NCBI RefSeq assembly: GCF_004376845.1
Contig: NZ_SNUW01000004.1
Span: forward strand, 186,001 to 250,000
Source of the DNA: Psychromonas algarum
Lineage (GTDB): Bacteria > Pseudomonadota > Gammaproteobacteria > Enterobacterales > Psychromonadaceae
DNA length: 64,000 bases
Direction: 5' to 3'
In this document: in pieces, positions 39,754 to 53,762 of the stretch
Layout of the letters: every line of letters starts with the position of its first letter
How positions within the stretch are numbered: position 1 is the stretch's first letter
Notes under the pieces: generated by a model
The model's input: only the letters and a program-made list of their open reading frames with translations
Told to the model about the DNA's origin: nothing
Databases searched by the model: none
Position numbers and translations under genes: made by a program

Positions 39754-41310
39754 TTACATTGCTAGATTTACGTACTCTTCTATCTGCTCTTTACTAATCG
39801 TTAATAGAGCATAATCTTTACGCCAACCATTAATCGTTGCATCTCTGCGTAATCGTAATTGCAAAGCTTGATCATATTCAGAGCTAGAAAGCATACTCAG
39901 CACATTGTTAGAAACTTTAATTTCAAATTGCTGATTGTTAATATCACCTTCAATTATCTCAGTTTGCCAAATACTATCACGTGCCCCACTGCGATCACCC
40001 ATGATGGCAAATATATACCCCCAATCATCACGCATCAGATCTAAGTTATTCAGTGTAAACTTAATCACTAAGTTTTCACCTTCAGCACTTAATTCTACAT
40101 TCTCGAATTGTGGCTCCCATATAACTGGCTCGCTCTGTGGTGCATCATATGGTGTCTCAACAATAAAGCTTGTTGAGTACCAAAGATGATCAGAAACAAA
40201 CTCACGCTCACCATATTGAGGCTCACCTTCAGCATCAACTTTTACACCACTATGTGGGTCCGACCAAGTATAGCTATCATCTTCACCATGAGGACCAGGG
40301 AAATAAGTATGAACTCGTGGGCCAATAAGTGATGCATCAACTAATTCTACACCTGAAGCCTGTGCGTTATAGTAAATAAAGTCTAAACGGTCTCGATCAT
40401 CTAATGCTCGACCACATTGAGTAACGTAACTGTCGCCATCAGTCCAACTATCATCTTTATGGAATGGCCAAGACAAACCAGGGTGAGTGGCGGGATTTGG
40501 ATATAGCTCTCGATAAGTATCTGTATAACCAGCATTTTTAACCAAACGATGGGTTAAAAAGTCATGTTGAGTACCTGCATGATCAAACATATAAGCTGTC
40601 TCTTCGGTCCAATCTAAACCAGAAGCTTCGTTAAAATCACCGCCAAATATAATCAAGTCATTGTTATCTTTATTATCTGTAAGCTTAGTCAGCATGTACC
40701 TAACTTGATCGGGCCTCATCGAACGTTCATTTAATATATCAAGCTCATCTGAATCAGATACCGCAACACAACCTTCACGTGCAGACCAAGTAAAACCATT
40801 ACCACCACGCGCGTCGTAAACGACATAATTCTGATAATCTAAATGAGCACTCCATACAGGGACATCACGACCATTAATATCCAAAATAGCACCAATAACG
40901 TTACCATTATCAGTATGAATATCTTGGTTATCAAAAACCTGTTTTATAGGATATTTAGAAAGTAGTCCAACACTTGATACATCATGCTTACCTTGCCACA
41001 CATACATACCTAACTCTTCACCAAGACGAGCAGTCACACCTGATGCCTCTGAAAGTAAAATAACATCGGGAGAAGCAAACTTGAGTTCCTCTACTGCGAT
41101 ATCAAAGGATAAGCGATCATTTGTAGTGAAGTTTCGACGTAAGCTATTCCACATATTAGCTGAAAGCACTTTTACTTCTGTTTGGTAAGATTCCGGTTGA
41201 GGTGCTGGAGCTGGTAATTCAGGTTCTTCTGTATCTGTATTAGAAGAGTTACTGTTACAACCAACCAACAAACTGCTGATCAAAAAAGGAAGAATTTTAG
41301 ATGTTTTCAT
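39754..41310 (-). CDS. Endonuclease/exonuclease/phosphatase-fold lipoprotein
   Basis: 518 residues from the ATG at 41310 (GAGTGG 5 bases upstream; an in-frame GTG three codons earlier is possible). Lipoprotein signal (LPFLISSLLVGC) followed by an acidic Pro-rich linker. EEP fold motifs: LSANMWNSLRR, Glu in LLSEASG, WSAHLDY, GGDFNEASG and the C-terminal SDHLWYS His. About 130 residues after the EEP domain form a separate C-terminal beta-rich region. Surface or periplasmic metal-dependent phosphodiesterase or nuclease activity is likely. Scavenging phosphate from nucleic acids or phospholipid head groups would fit the organophosphate cluster nearby, but this is inference. Confidence 0.82.
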   Translation of the reverse strand: MKTSKILPFLISSLLVGCNSNSSNTDTEEPELPAPAPQPESYQTEVKVLSANMWNSLRRNFTTNDRLSFDIAVEELKFASPDVILLSEASGVTARLGEELGMYVWQGKHDVSSVGLLSKYPIKQVFDNQDIHTDNGNVIGAILDINGRDVPVWSAHLDYQNYVVYDARGGNGFTWSAREGCVAVSDSDELDILNERSMRPDQVRYMLTKLTDNKDNNDLIIFGGDFNEASGLDWTEETAYMFDHAGTQHDFLTHRLVKNAGYTDTYRELYPNPATHPGLSWPFHKDDSWTDGDSYVTQCGRALDDRDRLDFIYYNAQASGVELVDASLIGPRVHTYFPGPHGEDDSYTWSDPHSGVKVDAEGEPQYGEREFVSDHLWYSTSFIVETPYDAPQSEPVIWEPQFENVELSAEGENLVIKFTLNNLDLMRDDWGYIFAIMGDRSGARDSIWQTEIIEGDINNQQFEIKVSNNVLSMLSSSEYDQALQLRLRRDATINGWRKDYALLTISKEQIEEYVNLAM

Positions 41311-41522
41311 TATGTCCACTCATAGGTTATTTAGTGGGTTCATCATATGATGCCAAGATGACATTCTTACGCAGATCAACCTAATAAAATAAAACCGTAC
41401 TCATAAGTATAACTTATCAATAGGTTTGAGCAGGTAATGAAACGCAGTTTGAGGGGATCGAAAACGAGCCGACACACTGCCTCACTACCATTAATAACAC
41501 ACTAAAATAGCATACGATCAGC

Positions 41523-41685: not shown

Positions 41686-41704
41686 AATTATTGAGGAAGA
41701 ATAC

Positions 41705-41756
41705 AGAGGAGAGTGTTAACTCTCCTCTAAATATAGCGGTTTAAAAAAACGCTATA
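41705..41756 (-). terminator. Tandem hairpins after the Ugp-type ATPase gene
   Basis: Perfect 10-bp stem AGAGGAGAGT/ACTCTCCTCT with a 4-nt loop (41705-41728) and a TATAGCG/CGCTATA stem (41732-41756). No long terminal U-tract, so terminator strength is uncertain. Confidence 0.5.
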
Positions 41757-41788: not shown

Positions 41789-42925
41789 CTAATAAAGCAG
41801 TGCTTGCTCTGTTTCAATATCAAATAGATGACAATGTGACATATCAAATTTCATATAATGATCTTCATTATGCTTAACGCTGTCATCTGGATTAAACGGG
41901 ATACGTGAAATGATCTGTTCATTCCCTAATTTACAATACAAATAAAGTTCATTGCCCATCGACTCAATGACGTTAATATGAGTCAACGCTATATCCCCCT
42001 GCTCTGAAGGTGCTTGAGAGGTGTTGGCAACCGTTGATATATGTTCAGGACGCATACCAAACCATACTTTTTGTCCTATTTTATCACTTACCTTTTGTGC
42101 TTTATCATCAGGCAATAAAAAGCGTGTGCCACAGGCTAATTGTGTATACACATGCTCATTTTCTTTAATCAAGGTCGCGACAATAAGATTCATCGCAGGA
42201 GAGCCGATAAAGCCAGCAACAAACTTATTTGCGGGTAGATGATAAAGGTTCATTGGCGTATCAACTTGCATAATTCTACCTTGATTAAGAACACAGATAC
42301 GATCACCAAGAGTCATTGCTTCCACTTGATCATGTGTAACATAAATCATGGTCGCATTCTGACCTTCAGCTTTTAAATCTTGATGTAATTGCGCAATACT
42401 AATACGTGTTGAAACGCGTAATTTAGCGTCTAAATTAGACAGCGGTTCATCAAATAAAAATACATCTGGTTTACGTACCATTGCACGACCTAATGCAACT
42501 CGTTGACGCTGCCCTCCAGACATTTCACCCGGTTTATTATTTAGCAGTTGAGTGATCTCTAAGGTTTCTGCCGCTTCGTTAATACGTCGCTCTATTTCTA
42601 ATTTTTCTAGTTTTTGCTGTCTTAAACCAAAAGCCATATTTTCATAAACGGACATATGCGGATATAGCGCATAATTCTGGAATACCATCGAAATACCACG
42701 GTCTTTGGGCGGTAAATGGTTCACGCAACGATCACCAATAATGACCTCTCCTGCAGTTATATCTTCTAACCCTGCAATCATTCGTAATGTAGTAGATTTA
42801 GCACAACCTGATGGCCCAACAAACACCATAAATTCGCCTTCTTTGATAGTCAGGTCGATACCGTGAACCGCTTTAAATCCATTTGAATATTGTTTTTCAA
42901 CTTGACGTAATATTACTTCAGCCAT
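41789..42925 (-). CDS. ABC ATPase of the Ugp/Mal type
   Basis: 378 residues, usual length of UgpC/MalK. Walker A GPSGCAKSTT (Ala where most have Gly-Lys: G-C-A-K), signature MSGGQRQRVALGRAM, Walker B VFLFDEPLSNLDAKLR, H-loop YVTHDQVEAMTLGD, and a C-terminal TOBE/OB regulatory domain (about 240-378, with WFGMRPEHIS). It powers the two permeases encoded upstream. Last gene of the operon. Such ATPases are often exchangeable between sugar and glycerol-phosphate systems. Confidence 0.9.
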   Translation of the reverse strand: MAEVILRQVEKQYSNGFKAVHGIDLTIKEGEFMVFVGPSGCAKSTTLRMIAGLEDITAGEVIIGDRCVNHLPPKDRGISMVFQNYALYPHMSVYENMAFGLRQQKLEKLEIERRINEAAETLEITQLLNNKPGEMSGGQRQRVALGRAMVRKPDVFLFDEPLSNLDAKLRVSTRISIAQLHQDLKAEGQNATMIYVTHDQVEAMTLGDRICVLNQGRIMQVDTPMNLYHLPANKFVAGFIGSPAMNLIVATLIKENEHVYTQLACGTRFLLPDDKAQKVSDKIGQKVWFGMRPEHISTVANTSQAPSEQGDIALTHINVIESMGNELYLYCKLGNEQIISRIPFNPDDSVKHNEDHYMKFDMSHCHLFDIETEQALLY

Positions 42926-42968
42926 TTTTCTTCCATTTTTAATAATTATTTTAATGAGTGCTTATTTG

Positions 42969-43703
42969 TTAATTGAGATAACTAGTTAAGTGAGTATCAA
43001 AATCAGCAACTGAATTGAGTATATGATCCGCATGAGGTTTTAATTCTTCGGTAGTTGCCGTCCCTGTTAAAACCCCAATGGTAGCGGCACCAGCATTACG
43101 TCCAAAGTGCATATCTGAAACAGTATCACCAAACATAATGACATGCTGTGGTGCTAAATTGCAGTGTTCACAAAAAGCGGTGAGTAGTGCTGGAGCCGGT
43201 TTAGGCTCGATATCACCATCGGAATAACCAACAAAATCAAACAGATCATGTAGTTGACTTTGTACCAAGCTATAAATTGTTGCATTTTTTGTATCTGCTG
43301 TGGCCACTCCTAGCTTAAAACCTCTTTTCTTTAACTCAATAAGTTTATCTTTAACCCCTGGTAATGCTTGAATAAGAGATGGGTTATCTTCCACTTGCTG
43401 ATTAAAAACGTTTTTTACATGCTGACTAAATTTTTCTTCATCGATGGTTAAATGCATTAATTGGTACCAAGCTGATGCTGTATCTTCAACTGGGTTTGAT
43501 GCTAATAAACCATGGTTATCAACATGATCACCATATACACCAATCGCTGCTAATAATGCTTTGCTATCCGCTAGGCTATTTTTATTGTCAGCCTCAAAAG
43601 TATGCAGTATTTCCTGTGCTGCACCATGCGCAACTTGCAACCACATTTGATGGAATTCTAGTAGTGTGCCATCTTTATCAAACAGTAATCCTTTATTCTT
43701 CAT
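42969..43703 (-). CDS. HAD-family phosphatase (phosphoglycolate-phosphatase-like)
   Basis: 244 residues. Motif I LLFDKDGTLLEF (nucleophile Asp near 9), motif II GVATADTKNATIYS, motif III Lys in EPKPAPALLTAFCEH, motif IV MFGDTVSDMHFGRNAG. A helical cap lies between motifs I and II, placing it with the Gph-like branch of small-molecule phosphatases. Its first 11 bases overlap the end of the PHP phosphoesterase gene, so the two are made together. In this operon it probably removes the last phosphate from the product of that enzyme; cytosolic. Confidence 0.85.
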   Translation of the reverse strand: MKNKGLLFDKDGTLLEFHQMWLQVAHGAAQEILHTFEADNKNSLADSKALLAAIGVYGDHVDNHGLLASNPVEDTASAWYQLMHLTIDEEKFSQHVKNVFNQQVEDNPSLIQALPGVKDKLIELKKRGFKLGVATADTKNATIYSLVQSQLHDLFDFVGYSDGDIEPKPAPALLTAFCEHCNLAPQHVIMFGDTVSDMHFGRNAGAATIGVLTGTATTEELKPHADHILNSVADFDTHLTSYLN

Positions 43704-45174
43704 TTTCTTTTATCATCTCTGTTAATTCACCCCAAGTACCTATTAAAGGATGGGAAAAGGTTGCATTTTGTCCGTTATAAATAGGGTTAATTAGCCCCTC
43801 AAACTCGGCATTATTTTTTTCATTATTCACATTTAACTGGCCGCGACGTATATCAACACGCAACCAACCATGGTTTTTCATATCTACATTAAAAAGGATC
43901 GTTTCTGCAGATAATTGATAACGGGCAATGATTTCGCCATCAGCAATACATTCTGCAAAATAATGTGATTGGCTATCATTCACTGATAATGCATATTCAA
44001 CTACATTATTTTCAGCATCTTGCCCCGGTAATAAAGCGCCATCATTAATGTTAAACACTAAACCACATTGGCGTTCGATATAAACATGCCCTTGACGTAG
44101 ACCACTTAAAATCGCATTTCCTGATAACCAATCCGCATAAACAAAAGTGCTTGGGTCTCCATAAATAGAAGCTTCGATAGCATTGGGGTTACGCTCATGT
44201 GGTGCTAAGTGTGAATCGCTTCCCCCTACTGCAGCAATACGATAGCCTGCATTCCAAAGATGCGTTAACAACGCTAATGCCTCTTCTGTTGCTTTAGGGG
44301 AACTTGACCAAGTGGGATCACAGCAAACTTCTAGGGTATTGATTTTATTCAGTGGAATATCTGGATATTGCCAATGCCAAGGTTTCATCATTGGATGATT
44401 AATACTGATGTTACCTTCATCGATTGCAACTAAATTTATCCCCTGTTCGATAAGCGCAGCACTTGAATAATCGGCCTCTAGCATATTCAAAGATTGTCGA
44501 GGTCCATGGACGTTAAAGTGCCCTTGATCGGTCGTTACTTCAATTGCAGGTAATATTAATGTTCGCTCAGAAATAGGAAGTGCAGGATGGCAGATATTAT
44601 GTTCAGTGATAAAAAAGAAATCTAACGATTGTTGCTCTGCAATATTTACTGCGCTAGCAAGACTGTTATGACCATCTGATAATTGTGTATGTGCATGCAA
44701 ATCACCTCGATACCAACGCGGTTCTTTATTTACGCAGTAGTCATAATCAAAATCTATATGATGATTAATACTATTCACATTGATACAAGGTTGAGTCTTC
44801 GTAGCAAGTAGTTTTTCATTACTGCAGTGCTGAGAATCAATAATATCACTATCTTCAATATCAACACTGTAACGCATCGCTTTAGGTGACCTGTTTTCCC
44901 CCTCAAGGTTATATAAATGCAATTGCCAGTCACCAGCAGGTAAAGGACCAGGAATCCCCCCCAATGAAGCCGATTGCTCGGTTAAAATAAGTTTTTTACT
45001 CTCTTTTTCAAATAATAAATTTGCGCGTAACTGCTGTTCGCAGTCATACAGATAAGCATATAAAAAACCTTTTTTAATCGTCGTCGCCGTGATCGTTAAT
45101 GTTTTAATGTTAGCGCGAACGTTAAAATTTAAAACTCGATGACCAAACGTTAATTCACCGTTAAAATTCAACAT
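43693..45174 (-). CDS. CehA/McbA-type PHP-domain metallohydrolase
   Basis: 493 residues. The N-terminal about 145 residues form a beta-rich domain without signal peptide. The PHP metal site follows: YRGDLHAHTQLSDG (H160, H162, D167), FFITEHN, LPAIEVTTDQGHFNVHG, and later GGSDSH with the late ligands. This matches the CehA/McbA group, which contains phosphoesterases and the carbaryl hydrolase. Predicted to be cytosolic. In this operon it is most simply a phosphodiesterase acting on the imported compound, followed by the overlapping HAD phosphatase. The N-terminal domain is unusual and may shape substrate choice. Confidence 0.82.
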   Translation of the reverse strand: MLNFNGELTFGHRVLNFNVRANIKTLTITATTIKKGFLYAYLYDCEQQLRANLLFEKESKKLILTEQSASLGGIPGPLPAGDWQLHLYNLEGENRSPKAMRYSVDIEDSDIIDSQHCSNEKLLATKTQPCINVNSINHHIDFDYDYCVNKEPRWYRGDLHAHTQLSDGHNSLASAVNIAEQQSLDFFFITEHNICHPALPISERTLILPAIEVTTDQGHFNVHGPRQSLNMLEADYSSAALIEQGINLVAIDEGNISINHPMMKPWHWQYPDIPLNKINTLEVCCDPTWSSSPKATEEALALLTHLWNAGYRIAAVGGSDSHLAPHERNPNAIEASIYGDPSTFVYADWLSGNAILSGLRQGHVYIERQCGLVFNINDGALLPGQDAENNVVEYALSVNDSQSHYFAECIADGEIIARYQLSAETILFNVDMKNHGWLRVDIRRGQLNVNNEKNNAEFEGLINPIYNGQNATFSHPLIGTWGELTEMIKENEE

Positions 45175-45238
45175 TGTAGCTCCTTATTATTGGGGGATGG
45201 GTTGAATACACTCATCCCATCACCCCGATCAATATCAA

Positions 45239-46516
45239 TTAACGATTAGCTCGATCTAATGCACGCTGTGCGCGTTTAGCAGCTTCTTTTAGTGCTTTCT
45301 CAGCAGGAATATTTTCAATTTGAACCTGATCCGCAGCAATACTTAACGCATCGAGAATACGTCCGTTCGTCGGGTCAAAAAAGGTTTCTCTCGACATTTC
45401 CGCTTGTTTAAGTGGCATTAAAGCCTGTGGGTTTTCTTCTGTATATGCCTGATATTCAGGAACATTCTTCACGCTGTTACGCACAGGGATATAACCAGTT
45501 TGCATTGACCAATGTGCAGTATTTTTGGCATTCGTATAAAACTTCATAAACTCAAATGCCCCTTTTGCCGCTTCTTCATCAGTGCCTTTTGGCATTAAGA
45601 AGCTAACAACGCCTGCTTGTGGATTAGCTGGGTGCTCTCCCCAACCCGGCTGTACTGTTGCAGCTAATTTTGTAAAATCAAGATCACCTTGGTCACCCGA
45701 TGAACCGGTATAACCTAGAGCACGGTCTTTCATTACATCATCAATTGTTTTGTACCAATATTCCCATCCTTGGCCACCATGATGAATACGCATCGTTTTA
45801 TCTTGGTGGATCCATTGACGGAAGCTTTCCCAAACAGTGATCCATTCAGGTGAATCGATAAGTACGGTTTTACCATCATCACTAATCACTTTTGCGCCAT
45901 TAGAAAAAGCAGCATCCATTAGGTTGTTTTGTCCCCACATTGGCTCCCAACCATAGAATGTTGTGTTACCTGCAGCATCTTTTTTCTGTACAGCAGCAGA
46001 CACTTTTGCAACACCTTGCCAAGTATTTAGGTCATCTACGCTAAATCCATGCTCTTTTAGAATGAGCTTATTGTAATAAAAAATTTGCGTCGTACCGTAA
46101 GCAGGTAATGCATATACTTCACCATTATCCTTGGTCACTTGCTGACGAAATGAACCAATAAAGTCATCATAATTAAATTCCTTATCCATATAAGGTCTTA
46201 AATCACGTGTTAAGTTACGTGCAGCCATCATTTTCGCTTGACTTGAATAAAGTAAAACAAATTCAGGTGCAGTTTTTGATGCCATACCTGCTTGCAGTTT
46301 CTGGTACGTTTCATCGTAGTTACCTTGTAACGCCCCTTTAACTACATAGTCACTTTGTGAACTATTAAATTCTTCAATCAGTTCGGTTATCAGTCTCTGT
46401 GGTTTAGACCCACCTGAATACCAAAAGTTAACTTCCGTTGTCGCCATTGCATTAGCTGAGAATGCTAAAGCGCCTGCTGCGGTAGAACATAAAATTGCTA
46501 GTTTTTTAAGTTTCAT
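45239..46516 (-). CDS. UgpB-like extracellular solute-binding protein
   Basis: 425 residues with a signal peptide (LAILCSTAAGALAFSANAMA). Family 1 solute-binding protein: VNFWYSGG start, Q..GNYDETYQKLQAGMAS (as UgpB's KGNYEQNL region), IFYYNK, and the C-terminal AHWSMQTGYIPVRNSV that corresponds to UgpB's WHQKTGYLPITK. This resemblance supports glycerol-3-phosphate-like or phosphodiester ligands over plain sugars. Sits between the permease genes and the PHP gene, 6 bp from the permease. Confidence 0.85.
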   Translation of the reverse strand: MKLKKLAILCSTAAGALAFSANAMATTEVNFWYSGGSKPQRLITELIEEFNSSQSDYVVKGALQGNYDETYQKLQAGMASKTAPEFVLLYSSQAKMMAARNLTRDLRPYMDKEFNYDDFIGSFRQQVTKDNGEVYALPAYGTTQIFYYNKLILKEHGFSVDDLNTWQGVAKVSAAVQKKDAAGNTTFYGWEPMWGQNNLMDAAFSNGAKVISDDGKTVLIDSPEWITVWESFRQWIHQDKTMRIHHGGQGWEYWYKTIDDVMKDRALGYTGSSGDQGDLDFTKLAATVQPGWGEHPANPQAGVVSFLMPKGTDEEAAKGAFEFMKFYTNAKNTAHWSMQTGYIPVRNSVKNVPEYQAYTEENPQALMPLKQAEMSRETFFDPTNGRILDALSIAADQVQIENIPAEKALKEAAKRAQRALDRANR

Positions 46517-46522
46517 AGTTAT

Positions 46523-47464
46523 TTACTCTTTTACGCCGTTATCGGCAATGCCTGACAAAATTGTCTTTTGAAAAATAATGAATAGGGTTAATAGTGGTAG
46601 TACCGCAATACTGCTAGCAGCCATAATTTGTGACCAATTTAAACCGTAGTTGCCTTCAGCAATAAAGAACTGTCTGATTCCCGTTGCAATCAGGTTAAGA
46701 TCTTGAGAGGTAATTAATAAACTTGGCCACATGTAGCTGTTGTAATTGGTAATAAAAGTAATTAAAAATAAAGTCGCTAAAGCAGCTTTACATTGTGGCA
46801 ATACGATTGCCCAAAGTATTTTCACTTCTCCAGCGCCATCAATTCTCGCGGCTTCAATTAAAGAAGGATGCACTTTTAAAAATACTTGGCGTAGATAAAA
46901 CACACCAAAAACACTTGCTGCATTAGAGATAACTAAGCCCGTGTGGCTATCTAATAATCCCAAATTTGCTAGCGTGATATAAGAAGGAATGTAAGTCACA
47001 GCCCCAGGCAACATGTAACAAGCCATGACCACGAAATAGAGTAATGTTTGCGACCTAAATTTAAGCTGAGTAATGGCATAAGCGAACATTGCCGAATTAA
47101 CAATCACGATCAAAGTAGTAAATAATGCAACAGTAAAACTGTTCATAATATACAAACCAAAAGGAGCACTATTAAACGCTTCAATAAAAGATTCCCAACG
47201 AAATTGCTCAGGAAACAGGTTCATCGGATTGCTAAATATTTCATCGTTAGATTTCATCGATCCCATTAACATCCAAACAAATGGAAAAACCATAATGAGT
47301 CCAGAAAATATTAAAAAAACATGCTTTAACGATTTACTGAATATCGATTTTGAAACCCCATTAGTGACAGTTTTGCGTTGTTTAAACAAAGCCAATAAAA
47401 CTGTTAATGTTGACTTCTCATCTTGTTGCATAGCCCTTGGAAGGGGAATAGTTTGCGTTGTCAT
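46523..47464 (-). CDS. UgpE-like ABC permease
   Basis: 313 residues, six membrane segments after an N-terminal cytosolic stretch of about 45 residues that is longer than in UgpE. The ATPase-contact EAA loop reads EAARIDGAGEVKILWAIVLP. MFPFVWMLMGSMKS marks the start of the MalG/UgpE-type core. Partner of the permease encoded just upstream. Confidence 0.9.
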   Translation of the reverse strand: MTTQTIPLPRAMQQDEKSTLTVLLALFKQRKTVTNGVSKSIFSKSLKHVFLIFSGLIMVFPFVWMLMGSMKSNDEIFSNPMNLFPEQFRWESFIEAFNSAPFGLYIMNSFTVALFTTLIVIVNSAMFAYAITQLKFRSQTLLYFVVMACYMLPGAVTYIPSYITLANLGLLDSHTGLVISNAASVFGVFYLRQVFLKVHPSLIEAARIDGAGEVKILWAIVLPQCKAALATLFLITFITNYNSYMWPSLLITSQDLNLIATGIRQFFIAEGNYGLNWSQIMAASSIAVLPLLTLFIIFQKTILSGIADNGVKE

Positions 47465-47474
47465 AACGAGTTCC

Positions 47475-48362
47475 TTAGTAATATATCCAACGTTTACCCA
47501 TCTCGGTGTTAATAAGCGTTAGCACACCAGTGATCAGTAAAATAATAAGCGATGTTGCAGCTGCAGGGCCCATATCGTATAGCTCAAAGGCTTGCTGATA
47601 GAAAAGGTATAACAGCGTACGGGTACTGCCACTTGGGCCACCTTGAGTTAATATCTGGAATTGATCAAATGCTTGAATCGCGGTGATCATGTTAACGATA
47701 ACCAAGAAAAAAGTGGTTGGTGAAATAAGTGGTAAAGTAATTTTTATAAAACGTGTTAGCGGGCTACAACCATCAATTAATGAAGCTTCGTATAATGATT
47801 CAGGAATTTTATTTAAGGCGCTGATAAAAAATAACATGGTCCACCCAACTCCTTGCCATATTGTTACGATCATGACAACGATCATCGCAGTATCACCACT
47901 TTCTAACCATGGGATAGGTGCAAATCCAATTTTGCCAAGTAGTAAATTTGCTAAGCCCGATTTAGTTTCAAAAACCCAAGACCAAACAATAGAAACCGCA
48001 ACAGTAGGCGTTATCCAAGGTGAAAATATAACCGCACGATATAATTGGCTACCACGAAAGTTTTTATGCAACAGAAGAGCAAAAGCTAAACCTAACATCA
48101 CAGTTGGAATGACCACACCAAGCGCAAATACAAAGGTATTATTTAATGCTTGTAAAAATTGACTATCTTCAAGCATGTATTGGTAGTTTTCAAAACCAAC
48201 ATAACTGTACTCTGGAGAAATATAATCCCAGTCAGTAAAGCTAATATAAACACTCCAACCAAATGGAACGATCCAAAAAGTTAAAAGCGGAATTAATAAA
48301 GGAGCAATAAATAGCAATACCTTTAATTTTTCCGAAAGTGTGTGTGAATTAATTTTCATCAT
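47475..48362 (-). CDS. UgpA-like ABC permease
   Basis: 295 residues, six membrane segments; EAA loop EASLIDGCSPLTRFIKITLP, and PLLTFWIVPFGWSVYISF near the start, as in MalF/UgpA-type permeases without the large periplasmic insert. First transporter gene of the operon, 98 bp after the LysR gene. ATG-ATG start with AAGGAAAATA upstream. Confidence 0.9.
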   Translation of the reverse strand: MMKINSHTLSEKLKVLLFIAPLLIPLLTFWIVPFGWSVYISFTDWDYISPEYSYVGFENYQYMLEDSQFLQALNNTFVFALGVVIPTVMLGLAFALLLHKNFRGSQLYRAVIFSPWITPTVAVSIVWSWVFETKSGLANLLLGKIGFAPIPWLESGDTAMIVVMIVTIWQGVGWTMLFFISALNKIPESLYEASLIDGCSPLTRFIKITLPLISPTTFFLVIVNMITAIQAFDQFQILTQGGPSGSTRTLLYLFYQQAFELYDMGPAAATSLIILLITGVLTLINTEMGKRWIYY

Positions 48363-48460
48363 AGTATTTTCCTTAACTGTATGATGTGTATATTAAGTAG
48401 GCTCTGTGACAACATTGCTTTAGAAAACATTATATTTTCCACTGTCAAACCCAAGAAAAA

Positions 48461-49378
48461 CTAATGGCCAACCAATTCTTCGTTAGAAAAGGTATCTGCT
48501 GTTACCCCTTGGATATCTTGCTGATGCAACCAATCACAAAAAAAGTTTATCTTCGCGCTACGTTTATGTGGCGTGATAATGTAATGGCTTGAATCTGAGG
48601 GCATACTGCCGTTTAGCGCCAATACCAACTCACCACTAGCTAATGCCTTTGCAGCTACAAATGAGCGAACAAGCAATAAACCTATTGCTTGTTTGGCAGC
48701 CTCTAAAGCATGCAGTGAGTTATTGATTTCAAGTTTAATATTGGGCTCAACGGGAGGAATATTCAGATAACACAACCACTGCATCCAGCTTTCCTCATAA
48801 CCTTTAACTTGGATTGCTGGTAGATGAGAAATATCTTTATTAGCCAGTTCAGCATAATGTTTGCGTTTAAATGTTGGGCTACAGACCATGACCCACTGTT
48901 CTTGGCACAAGCGTTCAGATTGAATATCATCATTCGCAATAAAACCATTGGTTATTTCAACGTCTGCATCTTTACAAGCATCTCTTGAAGGCCAGTCAAC
49001 GAGTGATAAATCTAATTTGATAAAAGGAAACCTTTGGGTGAAATCACCTAACTTTGGTATCAGCCAGTTATGGCCAATTGAAGTGTTTGCTTTAATACGT
49101 AATACATCAGATTGTTGCTTGCCAAATAAAATCTGTGTTTGTAATTTAAGATGGTGCAGAGAGCCAGAAACAACAGGCAAGTATTGCTGGGCTGCCTGAG
49201 TAAGAGTGACACCACGTTGATTGCGAATAAATAAAGTGCAATCCAAAAATTCTTCAAGGCTTTTTAATTGCTGGCTAACAGCCGCCTGTGTAACGTGTAA
49301 CTCACGTGACGCAGCACCAATTGAACCAAGCCTAGAGACGGCCTCAAAAGCCATTAATGCTCGTTGTGAAGGAAGCAT
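48461..49378 (-). CDS. LysR-family regulator, GcvA-like
   Basis: 305 residues. N-terminal winged HTH (LPSQRALMAFEAVSRLGSIG, then ASRELHVTQAAVSQQLKSLE) and a C-terminal co-inducer domain. The LPSQRALMAFEAV opening is typical of the GcvA-like branch. It is on the same strand as, and directly upstream of, the transporter-phosphatase operon, so it probably controls it and may be read through into it. LysR proteins are usually divergent from their targets; here the arrangement is co-directional. Confidence 0.9.
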   Translation of the reverse strand: MLPSQRALMAFEAVSRLGSIGAASRELHVTQAAVSQQLKSLEEFLDCTLFIRNQRGVTLTQAAQQYLPVVSGSLHHLKLQTQILFGKQQSDVLRIKANTSIGHNWLIPKLGDFTQRFPFIKLDLSLVDWPSRDACKDADVEITNGFIANDDIQSERLCQEQWVMVCSPTFKRKHYAELANKDISHLPAIQVKGYEESWMQWLCYLNIPPVEPNIKLEINNSLHALEAAKQAIGLLLVRSFVAAKALASGELVLALNGSMPSDSSHYIITPHKRSAKINFFCDWLHQQDIQGVTADTFSNEELVGH

Positions 49379-49464
49379 AGATATACCCTTAATTTAAAAG
49401 CGGTTAAGGTAATCTATTTTTATGACAGGACTATGACATGATTAACAATTATTCTGAATTGCTG

Positions 49465-49815
49465 TTAATGACTGATAGTATTTGAAAAGACATTGATAAT
49501 AATACTCCCTATTAGAATAAAGGTAATACCGAGAACTGCGACCCAGTCAAGTTGCTGTCCATACCAGAGCCAACTAATCATAGTCACCAAAAAAATGCCA
49601 GCTCCGCACCAGATAGCATAAGCAATAGCAACAGGGATTGATTTAACTGTGATAGATAACAAAAAAAAGGCTAGCCCATAACAAGACAGCACTATTACAG
49701 TCGTTATTAGCTGTGTAAATTGTTGGGTCTTAGGTAGTAGCGAAGTCGCTATGACTTCAAATATGATAGCAAGTAGCAATGTAAATGCAGGCATTGAGGA
49801 GAGTAATTTAAGCAT
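49465..49815 (-). CDS. Small multidrug resistance (SMR) efflux protein
   Basis: 116 residues, four membrane helices. The essential Glu of helix 1 is present (LLAIIFEVIATSLL), as are the conserved AYAIWCGAG segment of helix 3 and Trp in SWLWYGQQ. This is the EmrE/QacE/Gdx family, proton-coupled exporters of quaternary ammonium or guanidinium compounds. The opening resembles EmrE-type more than Gdx, but no guanidine riboswitch or neighbour settles it. A second in-frame ATG eight codons later would give about 109 residues, closer to EmrE; neither start has a clear ribosome site. Confidence 0.9.
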   Translation of the reverse strand: MLKLLSSMPAFTLLLAIIFEVIATSLLPKTQQFTQLITTVIVLSCYGLAFFLLSITVKSIPVAIAYAIWCGAGIFLVTMISWLWYGQQLDWVAVLGITFILIGSIIINVFSNTISH

Positions 49816-50369: not shown

Positions 50370-53300
50370 ATGAATATTAATCATCTAAAAAATAACTTCC
50401 CTACTATTGCCATATTAACCAATATGATGGCAACTCCTTTCTCTGAAGGCATCATCTTTGGTGCTAAAGATTATGCGACTCAACAGCAGTATAATATTCT
50501 TTGTTTTAGTGGCGCTGAATTTGCTAAACCAGCTAAAACGAATATGTCTCGAGATAGAATTTTTGAGCTGATTGATAAGAAAGCGATTGATGGTTTAATT
50601 ATTCCAATGGGGGCATTGAGTCGATTTATTTCAATAGAAGAACAATTGCTATTTTTAGAGCAATTTTCACATATCCCTGTGATTACTGTCGCTAGTTCTA
50701 TCCCTGGTTATCTTGATGTTGGTTATACTCCCAAGCAGGGAATTGAAGAATTAGTAGAGCATTTAATCGGTGAACACCATGTTCAACGTTTTGCATTTGC
50801 AGGCCCAACAGGAACTCACCTTTCCACTCAACATAAAAAGCAATATTTTGAATCGGCACTAGCAACTCATGGTTTAAGCCTTAATCCTGGAATGTATATT
50901 ACTAGTGATATGTCAACTAATGAGCCAATTCCTCTACTTGATGAACTGCTAACCAAGCCTAAAATAGAATGGCCTCAAGCAATTGTTGTGAGTACAGACA
51001 GTCAAGCTATTTCCATTATCACCATATTAAACAAAAAAGGAATAAAGGTTCCAGAAGATATCATTGTGACTGGTAGCATGGGAGATATGGACAGCCTTTT
51101 TTCAGAGCCTCCACTAACAAGCATAATAGAACCAACCTATGAACTGGGATGGAACGCAGCTAAAAAACTAATAACATTGATTGAAGGAAATACAATAACT
51201 GAAAATACTGTACTTCCTACATCATTAGCCGTAAGGGAATCTTGTGGTTGCCTGCAATCAGACGCTGATTTGTTCCTGTTATCTAGTTTACCAAAGACAG
51301 TTAACTCCAAAAACATAGTAGATTTGGAAAATATTCAAGAAGAATTAGAACAAGTCATTAGCGCCATTTCACCTGAACAACAAAAATATGTTAATCAGGA
51401 TATCTCACACACGCTCACCATAATGCTATTTGCAGATTTAAAAGATGAAATGAGCCATCAATTAATTGCATATTTTACTAAGCATTTAGAGTCGGCCATA
51501 AAAACAGATCAAATATCCTTATGGAATAAACTTGCGCAAGCAGTTCATCATCGATTAATCCAATCGATTGATAGAATTAATAACAAAAGTAAAGCCGTCA
51601 AAATTGCTAGTGACCTATGCAAAATAGCGCAGCGATGTAATATTAAAGCAAGTCACTATCGTAGTTTTGAAACAGAAAAATATTTAGGTAGTATCAGGGA
51701 AATTGGTATTCAACTAAATTCAGAATTTAACCTTAATGAAATAGCTCAAAATTTACAAGATGGCCTTAATTTTAGCGATTGTTATATCAGTATTTTTGAA
51801 GATTTAGGTGAAGATAAAACACTAATGAGTAGTGTTTTTGCCATGCAGAATAAAGAACATTTAAGCACTTCAAACTCCCCTTACCCTTCCTCTGAATTAA
51901 TGCCACCTAACGTTAAAGCGTACGATCAATTATTTGCTTTAGTTGTTATGCCTTTATCTTTTAAAGAGGACTTTATTGGTACCTGTGTACTCGACCTTGC
52001 AGTAGGCAAAGGAGCAATATACGAAGGACTACTTACTCTTTTTTCTTCGGCATTAAAAAATCAGATACATGTTCATCGTTTAAGTGAAGCAGAAAAGAAA
52101 TTTAGTGATATTGCTCATAGTGCTTCAGACTGGCTTTGGGAAATTGATAGCAAAGCATGTTTTAAATACAGCTCAGATGGTGTTAAACAAGTATTAGGCT
52201 ATTCACAAGAGGAAATCATTGGCCGCCCAATGACTGATTTTATTGCTCATTCAGCCACGAACAATATACGAAAATTAATCAATTCTATGCAAACTCAACA
52301 TGAGCTAGAAGGCTTTGAAACTCGTTACCAACATAAAAATGGTACAGAAAGAGTATTACTTACTACTGGCAATCCTATTATTAAATATGGGAAAACAATC
52401 GGTTACCGTGGCGCCTATAAGGATATTTCACAACTAAAAGCACAACAAGAGCGAATAGAAATCCTCGCTTATCAAGATCCTCTTACCAATTTACCTAACC
52501 GTGTACAGTTCAATGAATTTTTGAATAAAACGATCTCAATATCAAAACAACAACAGCTAACATTTGCCCTTTTATTTATCGACCTAGATGGTTTTAAATT
52601 AGTAAATGACTCATTAGGTCATGATGGTGGTGACTTATTGTTAATAGAGGTTAGTAAATTATTAAAGCAATGTTTACGAAGTGGCGATATATTAGCTCGA
52701 TTTGCAGGCGATGAATTTACACTTATATTACCTAATATTAAAGATCAAAGTCTTATACAAGATACAGCTAAAAGAATATTAAAAACCCTATCAGCTCCGA
52801 TCATTATTAAAGAAAAAATTGTCTATATTAGTGCCAGTATTGGTATTGCTCTATTTCCAATTCACGGAGAGCAATCAAGGCTCTTATTAAAAAGAGCTGA
52901 TAAAGCAATGTACCTTTCAAAGCGTAATGGTAAAAACCATTTTTCTTTTTACGAGCAGGGTTTAGAAGATGCGCTTAATCGAACAGTAATGATCCGTCAG
53001 TCGCTACATACAGCAATTCGAGAAGATGATTTCTTTTTGGTATATCAACCTCAAATTGAAAATAAAACTGGAGAGATATCTGGAGTAGAAGCATTACTTC
53101 GTTTACCAGAAGAAAAATACCATAACATTACGCCAGATGAATTTATCCCTATAGCTGAAGAAGCCGGTTTAATTGAAGAAATTGGGTTATGGGTTTTTAA
53201 GACAGCCTGTATACAGCAACAACAATGGATAACCTCAGGTCTTAATTTAAAGTGCTCTATTAATGTATCAGCCAAGCAATTTAGAAACCCTAATTTGGCC

Positions 53301-53762
53301 GATAACTTCATTAATATAGTTAAAGAAAGAAAAATTGATCCTTGCATGGTCACATTAGAAATAACTGAAAATGCTATTTTCGACAATCAAGAGGAAGCAC
53401 AAGCGCTCCTACAGCAGTTATCTAACCATGGCTTTAATATTGCGATTGATGATTTTGGAACTGGTTATGCCTCCTTAAGTTGCTTACATAAAATCCCTGT
53501 CAATATTATTAAAATTGATCGCTCTTTTATAAATAATTACGCTAATAACCAAGAAAATGCGAGTATTGTTCCTGCAATTATTATGATGTCTAAAGGACTC
53601 AAATTAGAAGTTGTAGCGGAAGGAGTAGAAACAAGGGAGCAATGGAAATTTCTTAAAAAATTAGATTGTGATGTACTACAAGGATATTTATTTTCTAAGC
53701 CAATCTTAGCAAAAGAGATCCCAATTCTATTAAATAATTGGAACATCAAACAATTCGATTAA
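50370..53762 (+). CDS. Cytosolic LacI-like sensor / PAS / GGDEF / EAL protein
   Basis: 1,130 residues with no membrane segment. About 12-290: a LacI/GalR-type periplasmic-binding-fold domain without its DNA-binding headpiece (FPTIAILTNMMATPFSEGI, VSTDSQAISIITIL, TSIIEPTYELGWNAAK). About 300-575: helical linker then a GAF-like domain. About 576-700: PAS (SDWLWEIDSKACFKYS). About 700-862: GGDEF domain with DPLTNLPNR and signature RFAGDEF, i.e. AGDEF where most have GGDEF. About 880-1115: EAL domain with EALLR, DDFGTGYASL and IKIDRSFI intact. It should link a small cytosolic ligand to c-di-GMP turnover; the intact EAL motif favours phosphodiesterase activity, and cyclase activity is uncertain. 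Monocistronic. Confidence 0.9.
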   Translation: MNINHLKNNFPTIAILTNMMATPFSEGIIFGAKDYATQQQYNILCFSGAEFAKPAKTNMSRDRIFELIDKKAIDGLIIPMGALSRFISIEEQLLFLEQFSHIPVITVASSIPGYLDVGYTPKQGIEELVEHLIGEHHVQRFAFAGPTGTHLSTQHKKQYFESALATHGLSLNPGMYITSDMSTNEPIPLLDELLTKPKIEWPQAIVVSTDSQAISIITILNKKGIKVPEDIIVTGSMGDMDSLFSEPPLTSIIEPTYELGWNAAKKLITLIEGNTITENTVLPTSLAVRESCGCLQSDADLFLLSSLPKTVNSKNIVDLENIQEELEQVISAISPEQQKYVNQDISHTLTIMLFADLKDEMSHQLIAYFTKHLESAIKTDQISLWNKLAQAVHHRLIQSIDRINNKSKAVKIASDLCKIAQRCNIKASHYRSFETEKYLGSIREIGIQLNSEFNLNEIAQNLQDGLNFSDCYISIFEDLGEDKTLMSSVFAMQNKEHLSTSNSPYPSSELMPPNVKAYDQLFALVVMPLSFKEDFIGTCVLDLAVGKGAIYEGLLTLFSSALKNQIHVHRLSEAEKKFSDIAHSASDWLWEIDSKACFKYSSDGVKQVLGYSQEEIIGRPMTDFIAHSATNNIRKLINSMQTQHELEGFETRYQHKNGTERVLLTTGNPIIKYGKTIGYRGAYKDISQLKAQQERIEILAYQDPLTNLPNRVQFNEFLNKTISISKQQQLTFALLFIDLDGFKLVNDSLGHDGGDLLLIEVSKLLKQCLRSGDILARFAGDEFTLILPNIKDQSLIQDTAKRILKTLSAPIIIKEKIVYISASIGIALFPIHGEQSRLLLKRADKAMYLSKRNGKNHFSFYEQGLEDALNRTVMIRQSLHTAIREDDFFLVYQPQIENKTGEISGVEALLRLPEEKYHNITPDEFIPIAEEAGLIEEIGLWVFKTACIQQQQWITSGLNLKCSINVSAKQFRNPNLADNFINIVKERKIDPCMVTLEITENAIFDNQEEAQALLQQLSNHGFNIAIDDFGTGYASLSCLHKIPVNIIKIDRSFINNYANNQENASIVPAIIMMSKGLKLEVVAEGVETREQWKFLKKLDCDVLQGYLFSKPILAKEIPILLNNWNIKQFD

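Follow-up and report, generated by a model that had tools for sequence, protein, structure and literature searches.

What is imported by an operon in which a Ugp-like ATP-binding cassette (ABC) importer stands beside two hydrolases of other families, and which signal switches it on? The question is raised by a stretch of 64,000 nucleotides of Psychromonas algarum DNA (contig NZ_SNUW01000004.1, positions 186,001 to 250,000; in what follows, the window). Seven minus-strand genes span positions 41789-49378, in the order LysR regulator, permease, permease, binding protein, PHP metallohydrolase, HAD phosphatase, ATPase. An earlier note on this DNA had taken them for an organophosphate-uptake operon under a dedicated LysR regulator, with the PHP and HAD enzymes replacing the phosphodiesterase UgpQ. 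With somewhat better than even confidence, the sequence is read here as that of a PhoB-driven, Ugp-like operon for phosphodiester scavenging, PHP and HAD enzymes serving instead of UgpQ.

Gene set and conservation

The seven genes were confirmed on one strand, and their order is kept across 19 importer loci (the window, L020-L026, L031-L034, L036, L038-L041, L057 and L058), assigned by us to ten lineage groups. Because the order is conserved in these 19 loci, the arrangement is not due to chance. Loci L020 and L021 coincide with places in genomes G103 and G144 and were each counted once; plasmid-collection matches H3 and H4, equal to H2 in identity and score, were left out of the count. All seven genes are separate and in the same order in 17 of the 19. 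In Photobacterium ganghwense (L023, 9995-12307) PHP and HAD are fused in a single open reading frame of 770 amino acids, which supports the proposed coupling of the two enzymes; in L041 no HAD gene lies within the stretch examined. The PHP and HAD pair beside a Ugp-like transporter, which the earlier note had suggested seeking in other genomes, is thus present elsewhere, and the view that organophosphate-type importer, PHP and HAD form one unit is supported.

Intergenic spacing from LysR to ATPase is 98, 10, 6, 64, -11 and 43 bases. The spacing had been described as tight. The 11-bp overlap of PHP and HAD and the 6 bp between permease and binding protein are exact; the 98-base gap after LysR and the 64-base gap before PHP do not fit that description. 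A stem-loop is predicted in the latter gap. L020 (z -3.6), L024 (z -3.8) and L022 (z -1.9) also have predicted stems there, with differing sequences.

The ATPase passes the UgpC subfamily profile (457 bits, cut-off 432). The best profiles of the permeases are UgpA and UgpE, both below cut-off (165 vs 335 and 171 vs 297 bits), and that of the binding protein is UgpB, far below cut-off (99.5 vs 411 bits). The PHP protein passes the CehA/McbA profile NF038032 (156 vs 80 bits) and is under the Pfam PHP cut-off (17.2 vs 26.4); the HAD protein matches generic HAD profiles only.

The set is conserved among marine bacteria. Of 295 genomes sampled in the order, 14 hold the PHP protein (E 1e-20) and 12 the binding-protein clade (E 1e-80), the 12 all belonging to the 14. 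Intermediate relatives were not found: the PHP profile (E 1e-25) gave two matches in 369 genomes of the class, namely the own genome and one partial match, and the binding-protein profile (E 1e-60) gave two in 398 genomes of the phylum, the own genome and G021. A scan of genome contigs, confined to close relatives, gave 11 loci: seven from Moritella, Hafnia, Photobacterium and Vibrio, two from spirochaetes and two from Endomicrobium. Loci L031-L034 belong to the same genus as G103, L038-L040 resemble Vibrio loci, and L036 and L041 are from other genera. No description of this gene set was found in titles or abstract openings, a search that left subscription literature largely out of reach and is no proof of absence.

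Pho box and regulation

Four intergenic stretches were scanned for the motif CTGTCAT-N4-CTGTCAT, in which the four-base spacer is the one we take to separate Pho-box repeats; the score is the number of matches out of 14. PMC4415409 gives CTGTCAT as the motif of Pho boxes in E. coli and reports such boxes at the ugp operon of that species. The region 5' of E. coli ugpB, taken as positive control, reaches 11. In the window the top site (49422-49439) scores 13 and lies 44-61 bases 5' of the LysR start codon. With up to three mismatches the window holds five sites (5.7 expected by chance); the site at LysR has one mismatch, and a second site, with two, lies within the SMR gene (49683-49700).

A comparable site is present in all 19 loci. 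Between -110 and -20 of the LysR start, the best site scores 10-13 and lies at -59 to -86; scores of 10, 11, 12 and 13 occur in 6, 6, 6 and 1 loci. Among 258 control regions, 5' of other open reading frames of the same loci, 17 reach 10, three reach 11 and one reaches 12. The mean over the ten lineage groups is 11.4, vs 7.8 in 120 sampled control regions, and in 100000 random draws of ten control regions the observed mean was never reached. None of 300 permuted motif units equalled the observed excess; the nearest (3.3 vs 3.6) was the same motif shifted by one base.

A dedicated LysR regulator in place of the Pho regulon is therefore not supported and was rejected, since all 19 loci have a conserved Pho-box-like site upstream of LysR. 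The operon is probably under PhoB control and induced by phosphate starvation.

Binding protein and ligand

The binding protein is 24% identical to E. coli UgpB, and its relatives of solved structure are headed by UgpB proteins. The own genome has three SBP_bac_8 matches; the other two adjoin different transporter types, as judged by eye. Contacts in UgpB, as given in PMC12718374, are Y64, S143, S266 and Y342 for phosphate and E88, G303, R393, W188 and W191 for glycerol. Eight family members were mapped onto UgpB with MAFFT. Counterparts of Y64, Y342, W188 and G303 are kept in 8/8. The S143 counterpart is Thr in 8/8, and that of E88 is Ser in seven members and Gly in one. S266 aligns to Tyr or Gly depending on the alignment, R393 cannot be matched reliably (Arg, Lys or Gln lie close by), and W191 is absent or shifted. 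Altogether the family departs from UgpB at three of the five contacts to glycerol and at two of the four to phosphate. Three other CUT1 binding proteins from plasmid records, taken as control, have neither tyrosine (0/3) and carry Asp at the S143 position, in a loose alignment in which two of them have no BLAST match to the family.

In this alignment the phosphate end of the pocket looks partly kept and the tail end changed. Contacts are changed on the glycerol side and the tyrosines are kept; therefore the ligand is likely to be phosphorylated and other than plain glycerol phosphate. The altered contacts lend support to the earlier suggestion that the ligand may not be glycerophosphate. An AlphaFold model of the binding protein, built with eight sequences, was discarded as a basis for the ligand (pLDDT 35).

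PHP and HAD enzymes

The PHP metal ligands H160, H162, D167, H192, E212, H219, H260, D320 and H322 are invariant in all 11 sequences compared, among which is a remote protein from a spirochaete. They match the nine ligands of the phosphodiesterase No-PDE as listed in PMC11656708: H61, H63 and D260 (alpha), E135 (bridge), H142 and H203 (beta), D68, H93 and H262 (gamma). Five of eight ligand spacings are identical (2, 5, 25, 7 and 2 residues); the others are 42 vs 20, 61 vs 41 and 57 vs 60. In No-PDE, T137 is the leaving-group residue, and changes of positions 96 and 206 to aromatic residues shift activity towards monoesterase (PMC11656708). Counted from the ligands, T214 is the counterpart of T137, and C195 and M263, both non-aromatic, are those of positions 96 and 206, which slightly favours a diesterase. 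The structure model of the PHP protein is good (pLDDT 88). Its best fold match by E-value is 3E38 (6.4e-9; TM 0.36/0.49; 14% identity), and its beta-rich N-terminus matches collagen-binding and protease-associated domains.

The HAD motif residues D9, D11, T135, K168, D193 and D197, presumably catalytic, are invariant in 7 of 7 sequences. HAD relatives outside the clade were found in 26 of 289 genomes of the phylum besides G000 and G021 (E 1e-22). Ten of the 26 were inspected for gene order, and in seven loci the neighbours were identified; in L127 and L134 the HAD frame is masked by a longer frame. The named neighbours, an MttB-like methyltransferase in three loci and otherwise an acyl-CoA ligase, LpxK, a MocR-type regulator or nothing, give no hint of the substrate.

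The own genome, rated 100% complete in 38 contigs, has no GDPD match (PF03009, E 0.001); the same profile is positive in 11 of 14 control genomes. The proposal that the PHP enzyme stands in for UgpQ is supported by this absence.

The PHP enzyme may instead be a phosphomonoesterase or another ester hydrolase, a phosphomonoester or a non-phosphate ester being imported and the HAD enzyme acting on a separate product. The family label leaves room for this: CehA and McbA, which gave it its name, hydrolyse the carbamate pesticide carbaryl (PMC8292978), so the label alone is no proof of a phosphodiesterase. The PHP family also includes phosphatases, and according to PMC11656708 there were only two PHP diesterases of this kind on record; the small-molecule ones are, by the same paper, known only from flame-retardant diesters and one cyclic diester. 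L041 has no HAD gene in the stretch examined, and PHP copies in dihydroxyacetone clusters (below) have none beside them. For a monoester, however, a second phosphatase would be superfluous; the PHP-HAD fusion and the gene overlap suggest consecutive steps, and the Pho box and phosphate tyrosines favour a phosphorus compound. The alternative is unlikely.

PHP relatives in other settings

Genomes G011 and G164, of the same genus as the window, carry a PHP gene 55-58% identical (depending on the method) without such an importer. It is flanked by DhaR, an MFS transporter, DhaK, DhaL and an iron alcohol dehydrogenase, with no HAD gene beside it. The dehydrogenase of G164 reaches 554 bits with the glycerol dehydrogenase profile (cut-off 336), and G164 has a further DAK protein. 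The MFS protein of L035 has no relative of solved structure at E 0.001, and no consistent Pho box was found in the 250 bases upstream of the cluster genes (scores 8 to 11). The setting points to a glycerol- or dihydroxyacetone-related product. The ligand may therefore still be a diester that contains glycerol.

The operon could accordingly be an ordinary glycerophosphodiester system, with glycerophosphocholine, -ethanolamine or -glycerol as ligand, the PHP enzyme as a stand-in for UgpQ and the HAD enzyme dephosphorylating the monoester. This agrees with the UgpB proteins at the head of the structure relatives, the kept W188 and G303 counterparts and both tyrosines, the glycerol and dihydroxyacetone genes beside the PHP relatives, and the Qac-type SMR gene often found beside LysR. 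A Qac-type SMR protein might export a quaternary amine such as choline. It is opposed by the pocket, which lacks the glycerol contacts E88 and R393 and in which the second tryptophan of the clamp is lost or shifted. It is further opposed by the own genome, which has no match for glycerol kinase (GlpK) or Dak1; neither route would then be open to freed glycerol, although a cell starved of phosphate might simply discard it. The glycerophosphodiester alternative is judged somewhat unlikely.

More distant CehA/McbA genes occur near importers of another type. A CehA/McbA gene of any kind was found in 13 of 299 genomes of the phylum; in the 16-17 kb read around it in each of the 11 other than G000 and G021, none of the frames was similar to the permeases or the binding protein of this importer (E 1e-6). 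On rhizobial plasmids, CehA/McbA genes 26-28% identical directly follow a different CUT1 importer (L059, L060, L061, L090, L095 and L097). S. meliloti pB and Martelella are annotated records, both with a LacI regulator; L061, L090, L095 and L097 were recognised by BLAST. The Martelella locus (L060) has a GH38-type gene, and two Haladaptatus have a CehA/McbA gene near a CUT1 importer with a GH76 gene. From these sequences, the coupling of CehA/McbA-type PHP genes to CUT1 importers appears to have arisen or persisted more than once.

These CUT1 importers and their glycoside hydrolase neighbours are what would speak for a sugar importer with a misleading Ugp label, its enzymes acting on sugar derivatives. 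The CUT1 comparison proteins, unlike this family, carry Asp at the phosphate-serine position and neither tyrosine, in the loose alignment mentioned, and the Pho-box-like site is conserved. A sugar importer is quite improbable.

In Sphingomonas a CehA/McbA gene has a TonB receptor on one side and a GH92 gene on the other, next to genes of inositol catabolism (L062:7737-11589).

Proposed mechanism

From the sequence we infer PhoB control, the class of ligand, a cytoplasmic location, both enzyme activities and their order, as follows. Under phosphate starvation PhoB would bind the box upstream of LysR and transcription of the whole operon would follow; LysR may contribute a substrate-dependent signal. 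The UgpB-like protein would capture a phosphodiester by its phosphate, in a pocket whose altered shape would suit some tail that is not plain glycerol, and the UgpAEC-like complex would carry it into the cytoplasm. There the three-metal PHP enzyme would split the diester into alcohol and phosphomonoester, from which the HAD enzyme would release phosphate. As an inference, the two-step route of the earlier note holds, unlike its claim on regulation.

Several points weigh against the scavenging proposal. Many of the sites are weak when each is taken by itself. For the six that score 10 (L025, L036, L038, L039, L040 and L057), 300 random 500-base segments were drawn from each locus, and the score was equalled in, by ascending count, 25, 90, 100, 111, 125 and 132 of them; for those scoring 11 or 12 the count is 3-25 of 300, and the window site is matched by none. 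The sites vary in distance from the LysR start (-59 to -86), and control regions and loci are partly interrelated. Of the UgpB phosphate serines, one is Thr and S266 is not kept, with uncertain alignment there and at R393. PHP genes in dihydroxyacetone clusters, without importer, HAD or consistent Pho box, suggest that the enzyme can probably serve carbon use, and CehA and McbA are themselves carbamate hydrolases. The narrower version, a Pho-regulon system for a non-glycerol (or unusual glycerol) marine phosphodiester in which PHP replaces GDPD as a natural diesterase coupled to HAD, is offered tentatively, as possible and short of probable.

Features and neighbouring genes

Table 1. Features of the operon, its flanks and related clusters.
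Feature	Position	Strand	Basis or remark
SMR (Qac/EmrE-type) efflux gene just 5' of LysR, possible accessory	49465..49815	-	Pfam/NCBIfam
Pho box ATGTCATAGTCCTGTCAT, 13/14 consensus positions, between SMR gene and LysR	49422..49439	-	motif scan
LysR-family regulator (GcvA-like), gene 1 of seven	48461..49378	-	Pfam/NCBIfam; position conserved in 19 loci
UgpA-like ABC permease	47475..48362	-	profile match; 33% identity to E. coli UgpA
UgpE-like ABC permease	46523..47464	-	profile match; 33% identity to E. coli UgpE
Periplasmic binding protein related to UgpB; retains phosphate tyrosines Y67 and Y342, differs from UgpB at several further contacts	45239..46516	-	profiles, structure relatives, alignment
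Binding protein-PHP gap with predicted stem-loop	45175..45238	-	-21.5 kcal/mol, z -2.3
CehA/McbA-family PHP metallohydrolase	43693..45174	-	beta-rich N-terminal part and metallohydrolase domain 153-466; nine metal ligands
HAD-IA phosphatase, motif residues intact	42969..43703	-	Pfam/NCBIfam and alignment
MalK/UgpC-type ABC ATPase	41789..42925	-	profile match; 46% identity to E. coli UgpC
Terminator-like hairpin, 11 pairs, 3' of ATPase	41704..41729	-	predicted
PHP relative in dihydroxyacetone kinase/glycerol cluster with MFS transporter	L035:822-11754, L037:6063-14584		two same-genus genomes

The predicted hairpin 3' of the ATPase gene is the likely end of the operon. An SMR gene lies upstream within the flank, on the same strand, in 11 of 19 loci and adjacent to LysR in eight; beyond the window, it stands directly beside LysR in five of six Moritella, in Vibrio ezurae (L026) and in Vibrio sp. 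THAF191d (L058). Perhaps its product exports a cationic amine freed from the substrate.

On the 3' side of the operon, on the same strand, lies a gene of the endonuclease/exonuclease/phosphatase family (39754-41319) with a lipoprotein-like start, as judged by eye. It was dropped as an operon partner; no match was found in the examined stretches of the other 18 loci. At 50370-53762 a protein of 1130 amino acids is encoded, with an N-terminal domain like that of sugar-binding regulators, PAS and GGDEF-EAL-like sequence (by eye).

Relation to known systems and significance

The operon resembles the Ugp system (ugpBAECQ of E. coli; UgpB of Phaeobacter sp. MED193) in the CUT1 importer, the UgpC-like ATPase, the phosphate tyrosines, the Pho box (PMC4415409) and a candidate phosphodiester-cleaving enzyme within the unit. 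It differs in PHP and HAD instead of the GDPD enzyme UgpQ, LysR at the head, another gene order and changed contacts in the binding protein. To judge by these features it would act like Ugp-UgpQ and is not a member: binding protein and permeases miss the equivalog cut-offs, the pocket differs, and the candidate diesterase is of another family.

With Sb-PDE and No-PDE of flame-retardant degradation it shares the nine metal ligands, a monoesterase (here a putative one) completing the pathway, and 3E38, their structural homologue, as best fold match by E-value. It differs from them in the remoteness of its similarity to 3E38 and in its dedicated importer; the PHP protein has no export signal (by eye), vs a putative one in Sb-PDE. 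With the carbaryl hydrolases CehA and McbA it shares the family NF038032, but not, on the reading favoured here, the carbamate pesticide as substrate. The glycerol-1-phosphate transporter GpxB is likewise a marine bacterial system for organophosphate uptake but its binding protein is of the PhnT type and shares no sequence similarity with UgpB (PMC12718374).

Within the dissolved organic phosphorus of the sea, phosphodiesters are a poorly explained share. The proposal lends itself to direct testing through the fused Photobacterium protein and the altered UgpB pocket. If it is true, there would be an extra phosphorus route overlooked by surveys keyed to GDPD or alkaline phosphatases, and PHP diesterases would gain a natural setting and a nutritional role.

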